A stretch of DNA of 64,000 nucleotides from Clostridiales bacterium (lineage in GTDB: Bacteria; Bacillota; Clostridia; Saccharofermentanales; Saccharofermentanaceae), in NCBI GenBank assembly GCA_017561715.1, contig JAFZBN010000018.1, positions 310,001 to 374,000 on the forward strand, in the 5' to 3' direction. Made by a program: the position numbers and the translations under genes. The notes under the pieces are model-generated. The model was not told the origin of the DNA. It made no database searches and saw only the letters and a list, made by a program, of their open reading frames with translations. Positions within the stretch are counted from its first letter, which is position 1. Each line of letters opens with the position of its first letter. This document shows, piece by piece, positions 2,867 through 34,575 of the stretch.

Positions 2867-2885
2867 CTTTAAGAATCACTTGAAA

Positions 2886-4232
2886 TTACTTATTCTTCAG
2901 GCGCTTCTCCAGTGCTTTTTTCTCAGCTTCATAACCCGGCTTACCGAGAAGAGCAAACATGTTCTTCTTGTAAGCTTCTACGCCCGGCTGGTTGAACGGA
3001 TTTACGGAATTGAGGTAACCGGAAATACCGCAAGCCTTCTCGAAGAAGTAGATCAACTGACCGAGCCAGTACTCGTTGAGCTCGGGAACGTGGATGATGA
3101 GGTTCGGGACCTTACCGTCAACGTGAGCAAGAACTGTACCCTGCATCGCCTTGAGGTTAACTTCGTTCATGTCCATACCGGAAAGGAAGTTCAGACCATC
3201 GAGGTTCTCCGGATCGTTCGGGATCTTGAAAGAACGACGAGCCTTGTCGATAACAACAACTGTCTCGAAGAGCATTCTCTTACCGTCCTGGATGTACTGA
3301 CCCATGGAGTGGAGGTCTGTGGTGTTGTCAACGCCGGCCGGGAAAATACCTCTGCCGTCCTTACCTTCGGACTCACCGTAGAGCTGCTTCCACCATTCTG
3401 TCATGAAGTGGAAAGAAGGCTCGTAGTTGACCATGACTTCTGTTGTGTAACCGCGGCGCAGGAGGCAGTTTCTGGCGATCGCGTACTTGTAGCAATCGTT
3501 CTCCATTTCTACCTTCTTGAAATCACGGCTTGCGTCACGAGCACCGGTCATGAGTTGACGGATGTCGATACCTGCAACAGCGATCGGCAGAAGACCTACA
3601 GCTGTCAGAACGGAGAAACGTCCTCCGACGTCATCCGGTACTACGAATGTCTCGTAGCCTTCCTTAGTCGCGAGGCCCTTAAGAGCTCCCTTTGCCTTAT
3701 CTGTTGTAGCGTAAATTCTCTGTCTGGCTTCTTCTTTACCGTACTTTTCTTCCATGTAAGCGCGGATGATACGGAAAGCGATCGCCGGCTCGGTTGTTGT
3801 ACCGGACTTGGAGATGATGTTGACGGAAACTCTCTTACCCTCGAGAAGATCCATCAGGTCAGCGAGATATGTAGCGCTGATGGAGTTACCGCAGAAAAGG
3901 ACCATCGGAGCTTTTCTTACTTTCTTCTGGGCAACATTCGCGAAAGAATGAGACAGAAGCTCGATCGCTGCTCTTGCGCCGAGGTAGGATCCGCCGATAC
4001 CGATAACCAGAAGTACATCAGAATCCTTTCTGATCTTAGCGGCTGCTTTGCGGATACGGATAAACTCGTTCTTGTCATACTTGCTCGGAAGTTCTACCCA
4101 GCCAAGGAAGTCACTGCCGGGACCTGTCTTCTTGTGAAGCATGTTGTGTGCCACTTCTACCTGTGGCAGCATCTTTTCCATTTCGCCTTCGGAAATAAAA
4201 GGCATAATGTTGGAAGTATCAAGACTAATCAT
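2886..4232 (-). CDS. pgi: Glucose-6-phosphate isomerase
   Basis: A cytosolic glycolytic enzyme that interconverts glucose-6-phosphate and fructose-6-phosphate. The 448-residue length matches Firmicutes Pgi. Visible signatures include the sugar-isomerase block [16 protein letters not shown], the [15 protein letters not shown] phosphate-binding segment, the [16 protein letters not shown] loop and the C-terminal [13 protein letters not shown] motif. A GAGGAG ribosome site lies between an upstream ATG (4247) and ATG 4232, so 4232 is the start. It is monocistronic with its own terminator, and the 300-base gap upstream holds one iterated octamer at 4451. Confidence 0.96.
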
Positions 4233-4484
4233 AAAAATTCTCCTCATTCTTTTATGAAAATTGGTGTCCTCAACACCGCATTAAGTATAACATGAATAAC
4301 GCGGATTGCACGGATAGAAACGCAGAAAATGCATCAGAATTCATTAAGAATTTCGTGGAAATCGTAGGTTTTTAAGATTTGTCAAGAAAAAATGAAAGTC
4401 GAAATCGGTTAAGTTAGGATGGCTTCGTCAGCGCTCTTTAAGAGGGGCAGGTGCTTTTCGCGAAGATGAAGATCCAATTCAAAA

Positions 4485-4513
4485 TGGATTCTTTTGACTT
4501 TATGAATTATAAT
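4485..4513 (+). promoter_or_regulatory. Candidate sigma-A promoter for the DUF4364 gene
   Basis: A TGGATT hexamer at 4485-4490 is followed after 17 bases by a perfect TATAAT at 4508-4513, about 30 bases before the gene. The rest of the 4233-4542 gap shows nothing else I recognise apart from the octamer at 4451. Confidence 0.5.
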
Positions 4514-4542
4514 GAGAACCACGATTACAGACAGGGGTACCC

Positions 4543-5094
4543 ATGGAAAAGGCTGATTCTACAAATTCCAAGATCATCATTCTTTATATCCTTTCAAAGG
4601 TGAACGATATCTCGTCTTCACAGTTGATGGATTGTGCTCTGGAATCTTTATACATGGACTTCTTCTCCTTCAGCCAGGCCAAGTCGGAACTGGTTTCCAA
4701 AAAGCTCATGACCGAGATGGTTCGAAAGGGTGAACTGCGAAAAGATGCGACCGGAAAGCCGGTCCTTTCCTGCTATATCACACCCGCCGGAAAAGAGATC
4801 CTCGAAAGGCTTCTCCCTTCTGTTCCTGCGGCGATCCGTGCCTATCTGACTTCCGCTTCGCGCAACTGGCAGGTTGACACGAATGAGTCGCAAAGCGTAT
4901 TTGCCGATTATTCTCCGAATGACGAGGGCACATGGTACGTCGATCTTCGTCTGATCGAGCGCGGCTCCACCACTTTTGCTCTGCGCATGGCTGCTCCTTC
5001 CGAAGAAGTTGCCGAGAGAACATGCAAACGTTGGGAAACAGCTACTGCTGAAACCTATATGGAGATCCTGCGACTTTTGTCGGAAGAAAAGTGA
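4543..5094 (+). CDS. DUF4364 family protein, winged-helix-like
   Basis: A 183-residue protein recognised as DUF4364, a Clostridia family of unknown function. The N-terminal 75 residues look like a winged helix (NSKIIILYILSKVNDISSSQL, then a TPAGKEILERL segment typical of DNA-binding wings). The C-terminal half has the mixed beta/alpha GTWYVDLRLIERG core of the family. A role as a transcriptional regulator is inferred from the fold only. An ATG follows an ACAGGGGT sequence that is a weak ribosome site. Downstream lies the first palindrome array. Confidence 0.75.
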   Translation: MEKADSTNSKIIILYILSKVNDISSSQLMDCALESLYMDFFSFSQAKSELVSKKLMTEMVRKGELRKDATGKPVLSCYITPAGKEILERLLPSVPAAIRAYLTSASRNWQVDTNESQSVFADYSPNDEGTWYVDLRLIERGSTTFALRMAAPSEEVAERTCKRWETATAETYMEILRLLSEEK

Positions 5095-5168
5095 CCCCCA
5101 CATTTTGAATGAACATCTTTGCTCACACGTTGCAATTTTGAGAGCGTACGTTATAGTTGTGCTTTCTT

Positions 5169-5343
5169 GTTCTATGTTTCGTTCTATTTTGACTGCCTTT
5201 TTAGAACCAAACCTAGAACATTCCCTCTTTGTTCTATGTTTCGTTCTATTTTAGCCGCTTTTTTAGAACCAAACCTAGAACATCCCCTCTTTGTTCTATG
5301 TTTCGTTCTATTTTGGCCGCTTTTTTAGAACCAAACCTAGAAC
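5169..5343. repeat. Locus A: three tandem 51-bp GTTCTA palindromes, 62-bp period
   Basis: Units start at 5169, 5231 and 5293, each 51 bp, separated by 11-bp spacers. Each unit is an 18-bp left arm (GTTCTATGTTTCGTTCTA), a 15-bp loop, and an 18-bp right arm (TAGAACCAAACCTAGAAC). The arms are complementary except at two positions that are kept in all three units. The apparent reading frames through this stretch are artefacts of the repeat. Confidence 0.92.
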
Positions 5344-5465
5344 AACACAAAGATCTGTTCTTTTCTTTCCGCAAAGGTGATATGATGTGTACATGCTCGA
5401 CTTTTGTTGTGGTATTAGATGTTGATTGTATGAATCGAGCAAATATCACTAATAAGAGGTGTAGC

Positions 5466-6272
5466 ATGATTTCTTCTCGTATTATTGCATCCGCGATTCA
5501 TCTTCGAAAGAGCGCCATTTCGTCGCTCCAGCTCATCGACCAGAATTCCCCGAAGCTTTCGCTTGGCAAGCACAACGTTCATGGACGGACTGTTCATGTC
5601 ATTCGCATTTTTAAAACCATCAACGGCAAGCAAAAGTGTTTTGAATATTCGATTACTGCCCCCATAGGCAAGAAGCTTTTGACGGCAAACCAGAAAGTTT
5701 TTCTTGTTAGAAAAGCACTCGCAGCGCTTTCGTCAGACGATCTTTTCGTTACTCAATCCATCAGAAGCATTTCCAAGGCTCCTGAAAAACCGGCTTGGCT
5801 GGATCCTGACACAAACGCAAACACCCCCACCCCGTCGTCACTTTCCTTCTCCATAGACGAATGGCTCTCCCTCAGCGAGTGGAACGACCCGAGAATTACA
5901 AACGGATACCGCCACGGGAATCACGTCTTCCGTTCCAAATCAGAATTGATGATCGCGCAACTATTAGAATCGTTGGGATTAGAATACAAATATGAACCTC
6001 TGATAATGATCGGCGGAACGGAAAGACGCCCTGATTTTGCGGTCCTCTGTCCGGAAACAATGAGATACTTTTTCATAGAGCATCTGGGATTACTAAGCGA
6101 TGCTCGCTATCGCATGGATGCAATAGCAAAAATGGAACAATACGACAAAGCCGGGATCCGCGATGGCATCGACATCATCTACACAACAGAGTTCGGACAG
6201 GGTGGTTTTGACATTGATGCAGCATATGGAAAGATAGCCGGTGCCATTCTTGCACAAAGCAAATCCGTGTAG
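5466..6272 (+). CDS. Putative PD-(D/E)XK nuclease-fold protein
   Basis: A 268-residue protein. The C-terminal half (residues about 165-255) has the pattern SKSELMIAQLLESLGLEYKYEP, then RRPDFAVL, then FFIEHLG. This fits a restriction-endonuclease-like core with a helix-borne Glu, an Asp in RPDF and an Glu-x-x motif in IEHLG. The N-terminal half is unrecognised and basic. ATG 5466 has a GAGGTG ribosome site; the frame also runs open upstream through the palindrome array but has no start signal there. It begins about 120 bases past locus A, so a link between the two is possible but unproven. The nuclease call is moderate. Confidence 0.55.
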   Translation: MISSRIIASAIHLRKSAISSLQLIDQNSPKLSLGKHNVHGRTVHVIRIFKTINGKQKCFEYSITAPIGKKLLTANQKVFLVRKALAALSSDDLFVTQSIRSISKAPEKPAWLDPDTNANTPTPSSLSFSIDEWLSLSEWNDPRITNGYRHGNHVFRSKSELMIAQLLESLGLEYKYEPLIMIGGTERRPDFAVLCPETMRYFFIEHLGLLSDARYRMDAIAKMEQYDKAGIRDGIDIIYTTEFGQGGFDIDAAYGKIAGAILAQSKSV

Positions 6273-6275
6273 GGT

Positions 6276-6890
6276 TTACTCTTTCAGCCAGCCCTTCTCA
6301 ACACCGCGGTCGAGGTTTTTCATGATCCACGCATAGACTTCCGGCATGAATTCCTTGATGATCTGCGCGCGGGCTTCAACCTGCGATCTGACCGCGCCGT
6401 TGTTGCGCCATGTGTGGCCTTCCGTCAATGTGTTATGGAGAAGCGGCTGCGTGCGGTCAAGACAAGCCGCGTATTTCGCATCCGTAGTTTCCATCGCGTC
6501 AAATTCTTCCCAGAGCGCGCGAAGCTCTGCGCCCTGTTCCGGCGGGAGCTGTGAGTAAAGCTTATCGGCGGCGGCCTCTTCACGCTCGGCCTTGCTGGCG
6601 TTTCCTGCCACATCGTAAGCAAAAGTGTCGCCCGCGTAGATCTCGATGAGGTCATGGACAACACACATTTTGATGGCGCGCTCTACGTTCGGTTCCTCAA
6701 CGCAATACTCCTTGAGCAGAAGCGCCATAACGGCGATGTGCCAGGAATGCTCTGCGTCGTTTTCGTTACGGACTCCGGAGATCAGCATCGTGCGGCGATA
6801 GACCTCCGTCATCTTATCGATCTCTGCGGAAAACTTCAGCTGCTGATCCAGACGCGGATTGCCCGAACTCAAAAAATCTTCAATACCCAT
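6276..6890 (-). CDS. HD domain phosphohydrolase (HD_3 / YfbR-like)
   Basis: A 204-residue HD-superfamily protein. Metal-binding motifs are clear: NDAEHSWHIAV supplies the first His, VVHDLIEIYAGD the HD doublet, and a later Asp (LDRTQPLL) completes the set. The length and the IYAGDTFAYD segment match the HD_3 group that includes nucleotide phosphohydrolases such as YfbR. Activity on dNMPs is a family-based inference. A GAGGAAG ribosome site precedes ATG 6890. It is convergent with the nuclease-like gene, with only three bases between the stops. Confidence 0.82.
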   Translation of the reverse strand: MGIEDFLSSGNPRLDQQLKFSAEIDKMTEVYRRTMLISGVRNENDAEHSWHIAVMALLLKEYCVEEPNVERAIKMCVVHDLIEIYAGDTFAYDVAGNASKAEREEAAADKLYSQLPPEQGAELRALWEEFDAMETTDAKYAACLDRTQPLLHNTLTEGHTWRNNGAVRSQVEARAQIIKEFMPEVYAWIMKNLDRGVEKGWLKE

Positions 6891-14864: not shown

Positions 14865-16112
14865 TCAGACCTTCTTCAGCACGATCTCGACGACAAATCC
14901 GCCGCCTTCTCTGTTACGGACTTCGAGGCCGCCGCCCATTCTTTCCATAAAGATAGCCGCGAGATACAATCCTAAGCCGGAGCCGTCTTTTCCGGAAGCG
15001 AGGCTTCCGCGATAGAACTTCGAAGTCAGAAGCGGGATCTCTTCCTCCGGAACGCCCGGACCTCTGTCCATAAAGATCACGTGGAGGTTGTCCATGTCGG
15101 AATGAAACTCGATCTCGAGAGGCGTGCCCGCGTACTTAAAGGAGTTACCGGCGATATTGTCGATGACCTGCTCGAGGCGCAGACGATCCGCGTAGATCAG
15201 GCACTCGGGCACCTCGGTCTTCTGCTCAACCGTGCCGTAGAAACGAAGCTCGGAGATAATGTCGGAAAGGATCTTCGAAGACTCTTCCGTCTGCTCGACC
15301 TTAAGCTCCTCGAGCTCGTCGAGCGTTGCCTTGAACATGTTGTCGATCAGGTGGTCGACCGAAGATGCTTTCGCTTTAATGACCTCGACCTTTTCAAGAA
15401 TATCCGGATCCTTGTCCTTATACTTGACTTCCATGACCTCGCACGTCGCCTGGATCGTCGCGACCGGCGTCTTGATGTCGTGCGAAAGCTCCGCGACAAG
15501 TTCCTTTTTGCTGCGGCTCGCCTCGATCTCGCGCTCGGACGCCTTCTTCAGCTCCTCGCGCATTCGGTCGAACGACTCGGTAAACGCACCGAAGTAGTTA
15601 TGCTTTCGCATCTTCAGAGGCAGGTCGAGATTACCTTTCGAAACGTGCTCGGCAAAGACCTTGAGGTCGTTAAACGGACGCACGAAGAAATACCACACGA
15701 CAAAAAGGATGCCGAGGCCCAGAAGCAATACCGCGGAAAGGATCGTCACAAGGATCCTCTTCTCGTTATTTTCTCTGCTGATATATTCTTCGTCTCTCGC
15801 GGCAAACGCGATCTTTCCGGAAATGGTGCCGTCTTTGACATAGTCGAAGACTGAGTAACCCTCTTTGATGTACATGTTGTTTTCAGACTCATACTGGGCT
15901 TCCGAACAGAGCACGATCTTACAATCGTATTTATCTTCCAAAGCCTCCGGAGCCGTTCCCGCAGTAAGTTCCTGCGAGATCTCATACGCCTCGGTATTTA
16001 GGGCAAGCATATCGATATCGTAGACTTCGCGGTCCTCGATCCTGCGATAAAGAAACGCGCCCGTCACGATGAGCACAACGATATAAAGGATCGCCAGATA
16101 ACGGATCTTCAT
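14865..16112 (-). CDS. Sensor histidine kinase (HisKA type)
   Basis: A 415-residue kinase with TM1 (residues 4-22), an extracytoplasmic sensor of about 95 residues, TM2 (120-143) and a HAMP linker. The dimerisation helix has phospho-acceptor His211 in ELSHDIKTP, and the ATPase domain has VIDNIAGNSFKYAG and MDRGPGVPEEEI, then DGSGLGLYLA. The external domain makes it VanS-like rather than an intramembrane Bce-type sensor. It overlaps its regulator gene by four bases. The pair is divergent from the MacB/FtsX transporter it probably controls. Confidence 0.93.
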   Translation of the reverse strand: MKIRYLAILYIVVLIVTGAFLYRRIEDREVYDIDMLALNTEAYEISQELTAGTAPEALEDKYDCKIVLCSEAQYESENNMYIKEGYSVFDYVKDGTISGKIAFAARDEEYISRENNEKRILVTILSAVLLLGLGILFVVWYFFVRPFNDLKVFAEHVSKGNLDLPLKMRKHNYFGAFTESFDRMREELKKASEREIEASRSKKELVAELSHDIKTPVATIQATCEVMEVKYKDKDPDILEKVEVIKAKASSVDHLIDNMFKATLDELEELKVEQTEESSKILSDIISELRFYGTVEQKTEVPECLIYADRLRLEQVIDNIAGNSFKYAGTPLEIEFHSDMDNLHVIFMDRGPGVPEEEIPLLTSKFYRGSLASGKDGSGLGLYLAAIFMERMGGGLEVRNREGGGFVVEIVLKKV

Positions 16113-16798
16113 GAGGGGATCTCCAGTTTATAGCCCGTGCCCCAGATCGTCTTGATCCACTTCGGGTTATTGGGGTCCGTCTCGATCTTCTCGCGAAGTC
16201 TTCTTATGTGCACGTTCAAAGTTCCGTCCGTGTAGAACGAATCGCCCCAGACCTCCGAAAAGAGCTTTTCCTTCGTAACGATCGTATTCCTGTTCTCAAA
16301 CAGGCACGAAAGCAGCTGGAATTCCTTGGCCTTAAGCGGGATGGTCTTTCCTTCCACGATGGCGCTCATCGTCGATTCATCTACGGCAAAAGCACTTGTC
16401 TCCGGTGCTTTCTGCGAGGTATTACCTTTCATGTTCTCCAGACGCTTGAGCTGCACTTTTACCTTGGCAAGAAGGACACTTAATGTGTATGGCTTCTTTA
16501 TATAGTCGTCGCCGCCGATATTCAGAGCGACCAGCACGTCGTCATCGCTCTGGCGCGCGCTGATGAAAAGGATCGGCGTATCGTACTCCTCACGGAGCTT
16601 TTTGCAGAGAGTAAAGCCGCTCTCGTTTCCGAGGTTGATGTCGAGAAGGAAAACGTCCGCCGTGTTTTCTTTCAGGAACGCAAGGCACGACTCCGAATCG
16701 GCCGCGATCTCACAGGTCACACCGAACATCTCGAAGTATTCCTTCGTCATCTTGGTAAGTTCGACTTCATCATCGATCAGTAAACAGTTTACGTGCAT
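16109..16798 (-). CDS. OmpR/PhoB-family response regulator
   Basis: A 229-residue regulator. The receiver domain has LLIDDE, phospho-acceptor Asp53 in VFLLDINLG, and a Lys in DDYIKKPY. A winged-helix DNA-binding domain (residues 130-229) has AKEFQLLSCLFENRNTIVTK and DGTLNVHIRRLREKIE. ATG 16798 follows an AAGGAGAA site. The likely binding region is the run of four 11-bp-phased TAAGAA-like repeats at 17153-17192, upstream of the divergent transporter genes. Confidence 0.93.
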   Translation of the reverse strand: MHVNCLLIDDEVELTKMTKEYFEMFGVTCEIAADSESCLAFLKENTADVFLLDINLGNESGFTLCKKLREEYDTPILFISARQSDDDVLVALNIGGDDYIKKPYTLSVLLAKVKVQLKRLENMKGNTSQKAPETSAFAVDESTMSAIVEGKTIPLKAKEFQLLSCLFENRNTIVTKEKLFSEVWGDSFYTDGTLNVHIRRLREKIETDPNNPKWIKTIWGTGYKLEIPS

Positions 16799-16879
16799 GT
16801 CTTAACTATTCTCCTTCTGAAAGAGCGCAAGCGCTCCCGCGGTCCCCTGCCGCCTTATATATTATATCACCTCCGATTT

Positions 16880-17125
16880 GTTCTACGATTTGTTCTACAA
16901 TTTGTTCTACAAAATGGGGTTTTGCAGAACACTTTGTTGAACAGCGGCCTGGTTCTATGTTTTGTTCTAAAAAACACCGAAAAATAGAACGAAACATAGA
17001 ATTTCACCATTTGTTCTAGGTTTGGTTCTAAAAACCAGTGAAAAATAGAACGAAACATAGAACATCTGTCCCTTGTTCTAGGTTTTGTTCTAAAAGTCAC
17101 CTCAAAATAGAACCAAACATAGAAC
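16880..17125. repeat. Locus B: four 51-bp GTTCTA palindromes between divergent operons
   Basis: Units start at 16892, 16952, 17013 and 17075 (periods 60, 61, 62). An extra GTTCTAC half-site at 16880 is 12 bases before the first. The first unit belongs to the CAAA subtype seen at locus C. The other three are the locus A subtype in inverted orientation: the reverse complement of the 17013 unit nearly equals the 5169 unit, including the same arm mismatches. All keep the 18-15-18 layout. Confidence 0.9.
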
Positions 17126-17152
17126 ACTTTCCCCGAGTTCAAAATCACGAGT

Positions 17153-17216
17153 TAAGAAATAAGTAAGAATTGCACAAGATTCATGTAAAGCATTCCCACC
17201 GCAAGAGTTCTACACT
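17153..17216 (+). promoter_or_regulatory. Regulator-controlled promoter of the MacB/FtsX operon
   Basis: Direct repeats TAAGAAA (17153), TAAGAAT (17164), CAAGATT (17175) and TAAAGCA (17186) are spaced exactly 11 bases. They end where a -35 would lie for the TACACT -10 at 17211-17216. OmpR-family regulators bind such 11-bp-phased repeats. The -35 itself is poor, which fits activation. Confidence 0.6.
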
Positions 17217-17319: not shown

Positions 17320-18141
17320 ATGCAGACAACGATTCAAGTCAAAGACAACACATCGAAGATGCAGGATGTAACCAACCTTCCTACAAGAGAAACGATCCTT
17401 CAGGCGAAAGACCTCTGCAAGACCTTCTCAAACGAGAGCATCCAGCAGCACGTTCTGAAGAACCTCAATATCCAGATCCGAAAGGGCGACTTCACGGTCA
17501 TCATGGGCGACTCCGGTGCCGGTAAGTCCACACTGATGTATGCGCTCTCCGGCATGGACCGCCCGAGCCTCGGCTCGATCTCCTACGGCGCCGAAGAGAT
17601 CTCCAAGTACAGTAACGACAAGCTCGCGCTTTTCAGAAGAAACCACTGCGGATTCGTTTTCCAGCAGAACTACTTGAACGACACGATGAGTGTCCTCGAT
17701 AACATCATGGTCAGTGGACTTTTGAAGAATAAGAATCGAAAAGAACTCGCCGAGAAGGCGAAAAAGCTTCTTGCCCAGGTCGGTCTCGACGAAAAGAGCT
17801 ACGGCAAATTCCCGAACCAGCTCAGTGGCGGTGAGCAGCAGCGTGTTGCCCTCGTAAGATCCGTCATCAATGACCCCGAGGTGCTTTTCGCGGATGAACC
17901 GACGGGAGCTCTTAACTCCCAGAACACCAACGCCGTTTTAGACGTTCTCACCGAGATGAATAACCGCGGCCAGAGCATCGTCATGGTCACACATACCGTC
18001 GCGGCCGCCGAGCGCGGAAACCGCATCCTCTACTTAAGAGACGGCGTCATCTGCGACGAGATCGAGCTGACACCTTATAACGGCCCGGACAGAGAGCGCC
18101 ACGTCGCTCTGCGCACATTCCTTTCGAACATGGGGTGGTAA
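17320..18141 (+). CDS. ABC transporter ATPase, MacB/SalX type
   Basis: A 273-residue ATPase with Walker A GDSGAGKST, a Q-loop in VFQQNYLNDTMSVLDNI, signature LSGGEQQRVALVRS, Walker [15 protein letters not shown] and switch His in MVTHTV. The EPTGALN motif and the partner FtsX-like permease place it in the mechanotransmission/antimicrobial-peptide transporter group. About 25 residues precede the first strand. GGAG at the usual distance precedes ATG 17320. The permease gene starts four bases after its stop. One iterated octamer falls exactly on the Walker B codons (17881). Confidence 0.93.
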   Translation: MQTTIQVKDNTSKMQDVTNLPTRETILQAKDLCKTFSNESIQQHVLKNLNIQIRKGDFTVIMGDSGAGKSTLMYALSGMDRPSLGSISYGAEEISKYSNDKLALFRRNHCGFVFQQNYLNDTMSVLDNIMVSGLLKNKNRKELAEKAKKLLAQVGLDEKSYGKFPNQLSGGEQQRVALVRSVINDPEVLFADEPTGALNSQNTNAVLDVLTEMNNRGQSIVMVTHTVAAAERGNRILYLRDGVICDEIELTPYNGPDRERHVALRTFLSNMGW

Positions 18142-20493: not shown

Positions 20494-20551
20494 TTTTCCG
20501 CCAAGGCTTTTCGTCCTCTCGAAAAGCACTCGTCCTCACATACAAAGTAAA

Positions 20552-20613: not shown

Positions 20614-20784
20614 GTTCTACAAAGTGTTCTACAAATCTTTCTTTTGTAGAACGTTTTGTAGAACATCGCTCAGGTTCAACAAATTGTTCTATAAATCATC
20701 TTTTTGTAGAACGAATTGTAGAACATCGCTCTTGTTCAGCATATTGTTCTACAAATCTTTCTTTTGTAGAACGATTTGCAGAAC
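20614..20784. repeat. Locus C: three tandem 51-bp GTTCTAC palindromes, 60-bp period
   Basis: Units start at 20614, 20674 and 20734 with 9-bp spacers. Each has an 18-bp arm (GTTCTACAAANTGTTCTA-type), a 15-bp CAAAT..TTTTG loop and an 18-bp opposite arm (TAGAACGNTTTGTAGAAC). Dimensions are identical to loci A and B although the sequence between half-sites differs. Confidence 0.92.
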
Positions 20785-34217: not shown

Positions 34218-34575
34218 GATAAGATCAAAGCGCTGTATTTCGCCAAATGATCTTACCTTCCGCTCTTCCGAATAAGATCAAATCGATGATTTCCACCAAA
34301 TGATCTTATCTTCCCCTCGTCCGGATAAGATCAAATCGCTGTTTTCCTCCAAAAGATCTTATCTTCCCCTCATCCAGATAAGATCAAACCGCCGTATTTC
34401 GCCAAATGATCTTACCTGCCGCTCTTCCGGATAAGATCAAATCGCTGTTTTCCTCCAAACGATCTTATCTCCCCCTCATCCAGATAAGATCAAACCGCCG
34501 TATTTCGCCAAATGATCTTATCTTCCGCTCTTCCGGATAAGATTAAATCGCTGTTTTCCTCCAAAAGATCTTATC
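34218..34575. repeat. Locus D: seven palindromic units at an exact 53-bp period
   Basis: Units start at 34218, 34271, 34324, 34377, 34430, 34483 and 34536. Each is 40 bp with arms GATAAGATC and GATCTTATC (minor changes in some), followed by a 13-bp pyrimidine-rich spacer (TTCC-S-CTC-N-TCC-R). The centre alternates between two versions: CGCTGTTTTCCTCC in units 3, 5 and 7, and CGCYGTATTTCGCC in units 1, 4 and 6. It lies between the convergent lipoprotein B and ftsH genes, inside their terminators. Confidence 0.93.

Follow-up and report, generated by a model that had tools for sequence, protein, structure and literature searches.

A mixed array between divergent genes

What does an array of regularly spaced palindromes do in the gap between a two-component system and a transporter? 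At locus B of the window (the whole 64,000-nucleotide stretch analysed here), such an array has genes for a response regulator and a histidine kinase on one side and for an ABC ATPase and an FtsX-type permease on the other (Table 1). Its unit, termed F1, reads GTTCTA-N6-GTTCTA-N15-TAGAAC-N6-TAGAAC, spans 51 bp and recurs with a period of 60–62 bp. The strict two-arm pattern matched six times in the window and not once in 100 dinucleotide-preserving shuffles, and half-site pairs with at most two mismatches numbered 29 in the window versus 3.8 expected. Judging from sequence comparisons, we think it reasonably probable that these arrays, locus B being among about ten of the F1 type, are phased sites on double-stranded DNA for a putative sequence-specific DNA-binding protein.

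The sequence-only reading of this locus had described three units of the locus A subtype on the opposite strand, preceded by one unit of the locus C subtype and an additional half-site. When reverse-complemented, the A-type units of locus B show the TGTTTC..CAAACC arm signature of locus A, confirming that 'inverted' is the correct term for them, and the repeat register bears out the C-type unit and the half-site. The further claim that both subtypes form one modular family is supported by several species, in which the two are combined within arrays and even within single units (an A arm with a C arm).

Table 1 Features around locus B, other arrays of the window and array families by period class
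Feature	Position or genome	Strand	Remarks
OmpR-type response regulator gene	16109..16798	-	Pfam PF00072 and PF00486
Predicted extended -10 of response-regulator gene, TGATATAAT (minus-strand reading)	16861..16869	-	Alignment; inferred from sequence
Extra half-site GTTCTA	16880..16885	+	12 bp ahead of first full unit; sequence, repeat register
C-type F1 unit, response-regulator end of locus B array, GTTCTACAATTT..	16892..16942	+	2 box mismatches
A-type F1 unit, inverted relative to locus A	16952..17002	-	Slightly diverged copy
A-type F1 unit, inverted relative to locus A	17013..17063	-	Repeat register, pattern match
A-type F1 unit, inverted relative to locus A	17075..17125	-	Repeat register, pattern match
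Likely ABC transporter promoter/operator	17151..17216	+	Alignments; motif reading inferred
ABC transporter ATPase gene	17320..18141	+	Pfam PF00005
F1 array, locus A	5169..5343	+	3 A-type units, 62-bp period
F1 array, locus C	20614..20784	+	3 C-type units, 60-bp period; region absent in G002
F2 array, GATAAGATC-N22-GATCTTATC-N13	34218..34575	+	53-bp period, 6.8 copies
F2, box GATAAGATC	G000		Period class 51-53
F5, box GTCAGTG	G003		Period class 51-53
F7, CGACTAAC-N15-GTTAGTCG	G013		Exact 53-bp period
F8, F9	G013		Period class 51-53
F10, box ATACGGCA	G009		Period class 51-53
F11, box GGACTAAA	G020, G002		Period class 51-53
F1			Period class 60-63
F4, box CTCTG	G000		Period class 60-63
TGTCAG family, GTTCTR family	G020		Period class 60-63
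F6	G003		Period class 60-63
F3			Shorter period, ~38-39 bp

F1 and related families in the genus

Across the whole G000 assembly to which the window belongs (2.47 Mb), F1 occupies ten loci with 28 units. The arrays are dispersed and intergenic, next to unrelated genes, some lying upstream of, downstream of or between genes and some 10–11 bp from the stop codons of convergent genes. When 84,980 bacterial and archaeal species genomes were scanned under strict criteria, exact units turned up only in a few MAGs of uncultured Clostridia, sampled from rumen, omasum and comparable animal sources. With up to three mismatches, units were present in seven of the 23 genus genomes (G000, G002, G004, G015, G020, G021 and G022), and degenerate units were present in two genomes of the sister genus, with pattern controls at zero; all genomes are MAGs, and parts of each were read. 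Orthologous F1 sites are retained in up to five species. Box mismatches are more frequent in edge units than in inner ones (0.75 vs 0.28). Most C-type or mixed units sit at array ends, yet they are variants of one palindromic unit. The mixed array at locus B is therefore one case of a general pattern of edge decay, C-type or mixed ends and box turnover at fixed places.

Around locus A, the corresponding region of G021 (L067) is mostly 84–89% identical to G000 over window positions 2874–6829, with 77% in one stretch, compared with only 74–78% for the response-regulator and ABC genes of G021. This difference suggests that the locus A region, array included, may have been transferred between lineages.

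At least ten palindromic array families, F1 among them, exist in the genus. When about 0.9 Mb of G000, together with samples of G003, G009, G013, G017, G019 and G020, was scanned for tandem repeats, there were further palindromic non-coding arrays with unrelated boxes in two common layouts, of about 53 and about 61–62 bp; the non-palindromic tandem repeats of the same scans mostly had coding-type periods. A direct box spacing of 12 bp is common to F1, F4, the GTTCTR family and, less clearly, the TGTCAG family. The F7 array of G013 stands at the very same place as the locus B array; this family is private to G013, where it is dispersed (16 units), with no unit in 22 relatives.

Several other repeats were observed alongside these families. 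A 72-bp array in the sister genus (G053, L303, 4413–4622) carries TCCTC boxes as direct repeats 12 bp apart, arranged in inverted pairs, which extends the layout to a second genus. The F2 array of the window lies between two terminator-like hairpins of convergent genes, a lipoprotein-like gene and ftsH. Palindromes with CACGTG and CATGTG boxes occur in G013 (L187, 10964–11060) and G002 (L272), those of G002 lying at a place taken by one F1 unit in G000 and G022. The octamer AAAAGCAC (extended roughly TCGAAAAGCACT; an example lies at about 20520–20530 of the window) is a short dispersed motif of a separate kind, often beside arrays, which occurs 414 times in 886 kb of G000 versus 27 expected from base composition, is also frequent in G003 and G013 and is much rarer in other genus members and the sister genus. 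It is possibly a Chi- or uptake-like sequence.

Fixed spacing and slowly changing boxes

The geometry of the units is strict, and the search did not impose it. Direct F1 boxes lie 12 bp apart in 131 pairs, and inverted boxes lie 21 bp apart, start to start, in 78 pairs, with none at 20 or 22 bp. Between orthologous units, boxes differed at 0.6% versus 5.1% at other positions for G000 and G022, and at 1.5% versus 18.9% for G000 and G002, so that the boxes change at a pace 9–13 times slower than the other unit positions, counted over cells that are not independent. For F2, the 53-bp register was kept in 53 of 53 inspected units, with boxes 88% identical and interiors only 37% identical, near saturation. 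Some of the box conservation could come from homogenisation within arrays, and edge decay could merely reflect less homogenisation at the ends.

A further constraint concerns base composition at individual positions. Columns 20, 21, 31 and 32 of F1 and columns 11 and 12 of F2 contain only A or T, in mixed proportions (37 T and 37 A in F1 column 31; 28 A and 25 T in F2 columns 11–12). Such columns, strictly A/T and free between the two, are what would be expected of indirect readout.

Box turnover at orthologous sites

Different families can occupy the same chromosomal place. The G000 assembly holds 49 F2 pattern matches. There are effectively none in G022, a close relative whose array flanks are about 93% identical; at the orthologous sites G022 has lost the array, usually with some flank. 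A GATAGGATC variant of F2 is carried by G006, G008 and G015. Four of the five F11 loci of G002 lie at F2 sites of G000, with a chance probability of about 1e-7 to 1e-9 for 500–2000 assumed intergenic regions. One of the G002 arrays at such a site starts with an F2-like unit and continues with seven F11 units, all in one 53-bp register, and its G000 orthologue opens with GATAAGTTC units followed by GATAAGATC units. At the F2 site of the window, F1 C-type units are found instead in G022 (one) and G002 (two). Beyond G002, two of about nine mappable array loci of other species fall on G000 array sites, too few for a firm hotspot claim, and the majority of F2 and F7 loci in more distant species could not be placed on G000 array sites.

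The main rival account, which we consider unlikely but serious, is that the arrays are non-autonomous mobile repeats of the BOX, REP or MITE type, moved by a transposase acting in trans and later multiplied in tandem, with incidental effects on neighbouring genes. Dispersed intergenic copies beside unrelated genes, a patchy presence across the genus, a clean empty F2e site in G022 and a modular make-up in which copy number varies, as it does in pneumococcal BOX (PMC3049150), all fit this account. Against it, unit interiors have diverged to saturation from locus to locus with boxes and spacing preserved, a state not expected from recent copying, and sites are retained at orthologous positions across species. 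The losses in G022 are mostly deletions into the flanks, with CAACA/AAACA microhomology at the F2e site, and no target-site duplications were recognised. A RAYT/Y1 transposase was rejected as a partner because PF01797 had no match in any of the seven F1-bearing genus genomes, an exclusion that covers RAYT and not every transposase.

DNA sites versus hairpins

The reading we prefer is that of phased sites on double-stranded DNA. Of 40 box deviations, 37 were uncompensated and three compensated, which argues against hairpin selection; G-T mismatches were in no excess over A-C mismatches, and pairing between the N6 segments (0.635) was no better than in shuffled sequences (0.596 ± 0.023). These results make a hairpin role of the arrays improbable, whether in folded RNA or in single-stranded DNA (terminators, mRNA stability elements or single-stranded DNA sites). 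Single units do fold well (z -2.5 to -8), and the units close to the stop codons of convergent genes would suit a terminator, but hairpins need neither strict A/T columns in the loop region nor strict spacing. The arrays also lie upstream of genes, downstream of them and in between, and Rfam gave no match in the window at the gathering threshold.

Promoters around locus B

The two-component/ABC operon pair is present across the genus. On the ABC side, a conserved block starts at 17151, 26 bp past the array, with a TAAGAA direct repeat 11 bp apart (17153–17158 and 17164–17169) and a TACACT motif (17211–17216), which are likely a response-regulator box and the -10 of the ABC transporter, respectively. 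Genus members without the array retain this block. The array itself varies: G000 has four units, G022 has three and G002 has two. G004 retains a decayed remnant, and ten others have no array here. Together, the retained block and the variable array state indicate that the array has been dispensable for the operon over evolution.

The sequence-only reading had placed the array in the divergent promoter region and suggested that it may affect expression of both gene sets. The location stands; a role as the regulatory device of the operon is not supported, as the ABC promoter block lies outside the array and is kept in its absence. That reading had also proposed comparing this region with and without the array: made across species, the comparison sets the ABC block apart from the array, against the regulatory idea, and agrees with the expectation that arrays vary. 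That the array is an operator of the two-component system and its transporter is thus very improbable, despite its position in the divergent region and a C-type end about 14 bp upstream of the predicted response-regulator -10. The operon and its 17151–17216 block occur without the array in at least ten genus members. The array is found in four species only and in G004 has dwindled to one decayed unit, and the other F1 arrays lie beside unrelated genes. Because its ABC promoter is outside the array and conserved genus-wide without it, the locus B array is not the main switch of this operon. The predicted response-regulator -10 also lies outside the array, about 12–14 bp from the C-type end, and is kept in G022, G002 and G004 (TGGTATAAT); this proximity makes an effect of the array on the response-regulator promoter possible.

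Other sequences occupy the same gap elsewhere. An extra conserved ORF lies between the response-regulator and ABC genes, at the place of the array, in G015 (L120), G008 (L119), G019 (L124) and G017 (L125), and a dispersed repeat, roughly GATTCCGCAGGGCGTAGCCCGAGGACCAGC, is found in the gap of the array-less G001 (L116), G018 (L118) and G017 (L125).

Neutral minisatellites grown by replication slippage, which would account for the copy-number differences among species and the likeness of units within a locus, are highly unlikely given identical boxes at ten dispersed loci, their 9–13-fold slower change, the invariant spacing and the common layouts of unrelated families.

A putative protein-bound array

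Returning to phased protein-binding sites, each F1 unit would offer four half-sites, with a direct pair of boxes, 12 bp apart, to either side of the dyad and A/T tracts between the inner boxes. Protein dimers or tetramers bound at fixed angles could then bend or wrap the DNA. Arrays would be inherited at fixed intergenic positions and would grow or shrink by tandem duplication. The preferred box may drift or switch between lineages at many loci together, following the protein, and units with older boxes would be left behind at array ends; the A-type and C-type units at locus B would then be two box variants. Candidate roles of the resulting nucleoprotein structure are chromosome organisation, insulation between genes and a selfish or conflict function. 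More tentatively, and on balance doubtfully, there may be several parallel DNA-binding factors, each maintaining about ten arrays, with box specificity rewritten across orthologous loci between close species.

Searches for the binding protein of the arrays found none. SinR-like XRE proteins were one candidate tried, because SinR boxes read GTTCTYT; matches occurred in 5 of 7 F1-bearing genomes versus 2 of 16 others (Fisher p 0.011), and the candidate was rejected as the inspected genes were not all orthologues and were non-homologous in different genomes. Clustering of ORFs adjacent to arrays yielded nothing but orthologous genes of the hosts, ABC paralogues and similar groups, and searches of phages, plasmids and viral contigs for homologous copies gave no matches. 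If the arrays are such binding sites, the putative protein and its purpose would be directly testable, since each species provides a bait of known sequence and geometry.

Comparison with known systems

We found no description of such arrays in the openly licensed papers searched. CRISPR arrays share regularly spaced, partly palindromic repeats with those described here, and were rejected because the spacers here are 8–11 bp, near identical between units and not unique. Integron attC sites have inverted R and L boxes; they were rejected because the boxes within one arm are direct here. The SinR-type operators of Bacillus subtilis consist of GTTCTYT half-sites that can occur as direct and inverted repeats, and the F1 box GTTCTA resembles this half-site; however, no SinR orthologue follows the arrays, and the other families have unrelated boxes.

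REP, BIME and REPIN elements with their RAYT proteins (PMC3116915, PMC3733652) resemble the arrays in being intergenic palindromes with clustered copies and lineage-specific sequences. Described REPs are 20–40 bp long (PMC3116915, PMC3733652), whereas the arrays consist of 40–51-bp composite sites in a strict 53- or 61–62-bp tandem register, lie in genomes without RAYT and do not maintain their arms as hairpins. The Streptococcus pneumoniae BOX, with boxA and boxC ends around tandem boxB and ISSpn2-like terminal repeats, is likewise a modular dispersed intergenic element with a variable tandem middle module and different end modules (PMC3049150). By its description it differs from the arrays, in which every module is a version of a single palindromic unit, one geometry recurs in several families whose boxes are unrelated, and orthologous sites hold different families in different species. 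Lineage-wise rewriting of array boxes would follow a logic comparable to that of eukaryotic co-evolving satellites and their binding proteins; if the sites are indeed rewritten in concert, they would provide a bacterial system for following, in closely related genomes, how a DNA-binding specificity and tens of chromosomal sites co-evolve.
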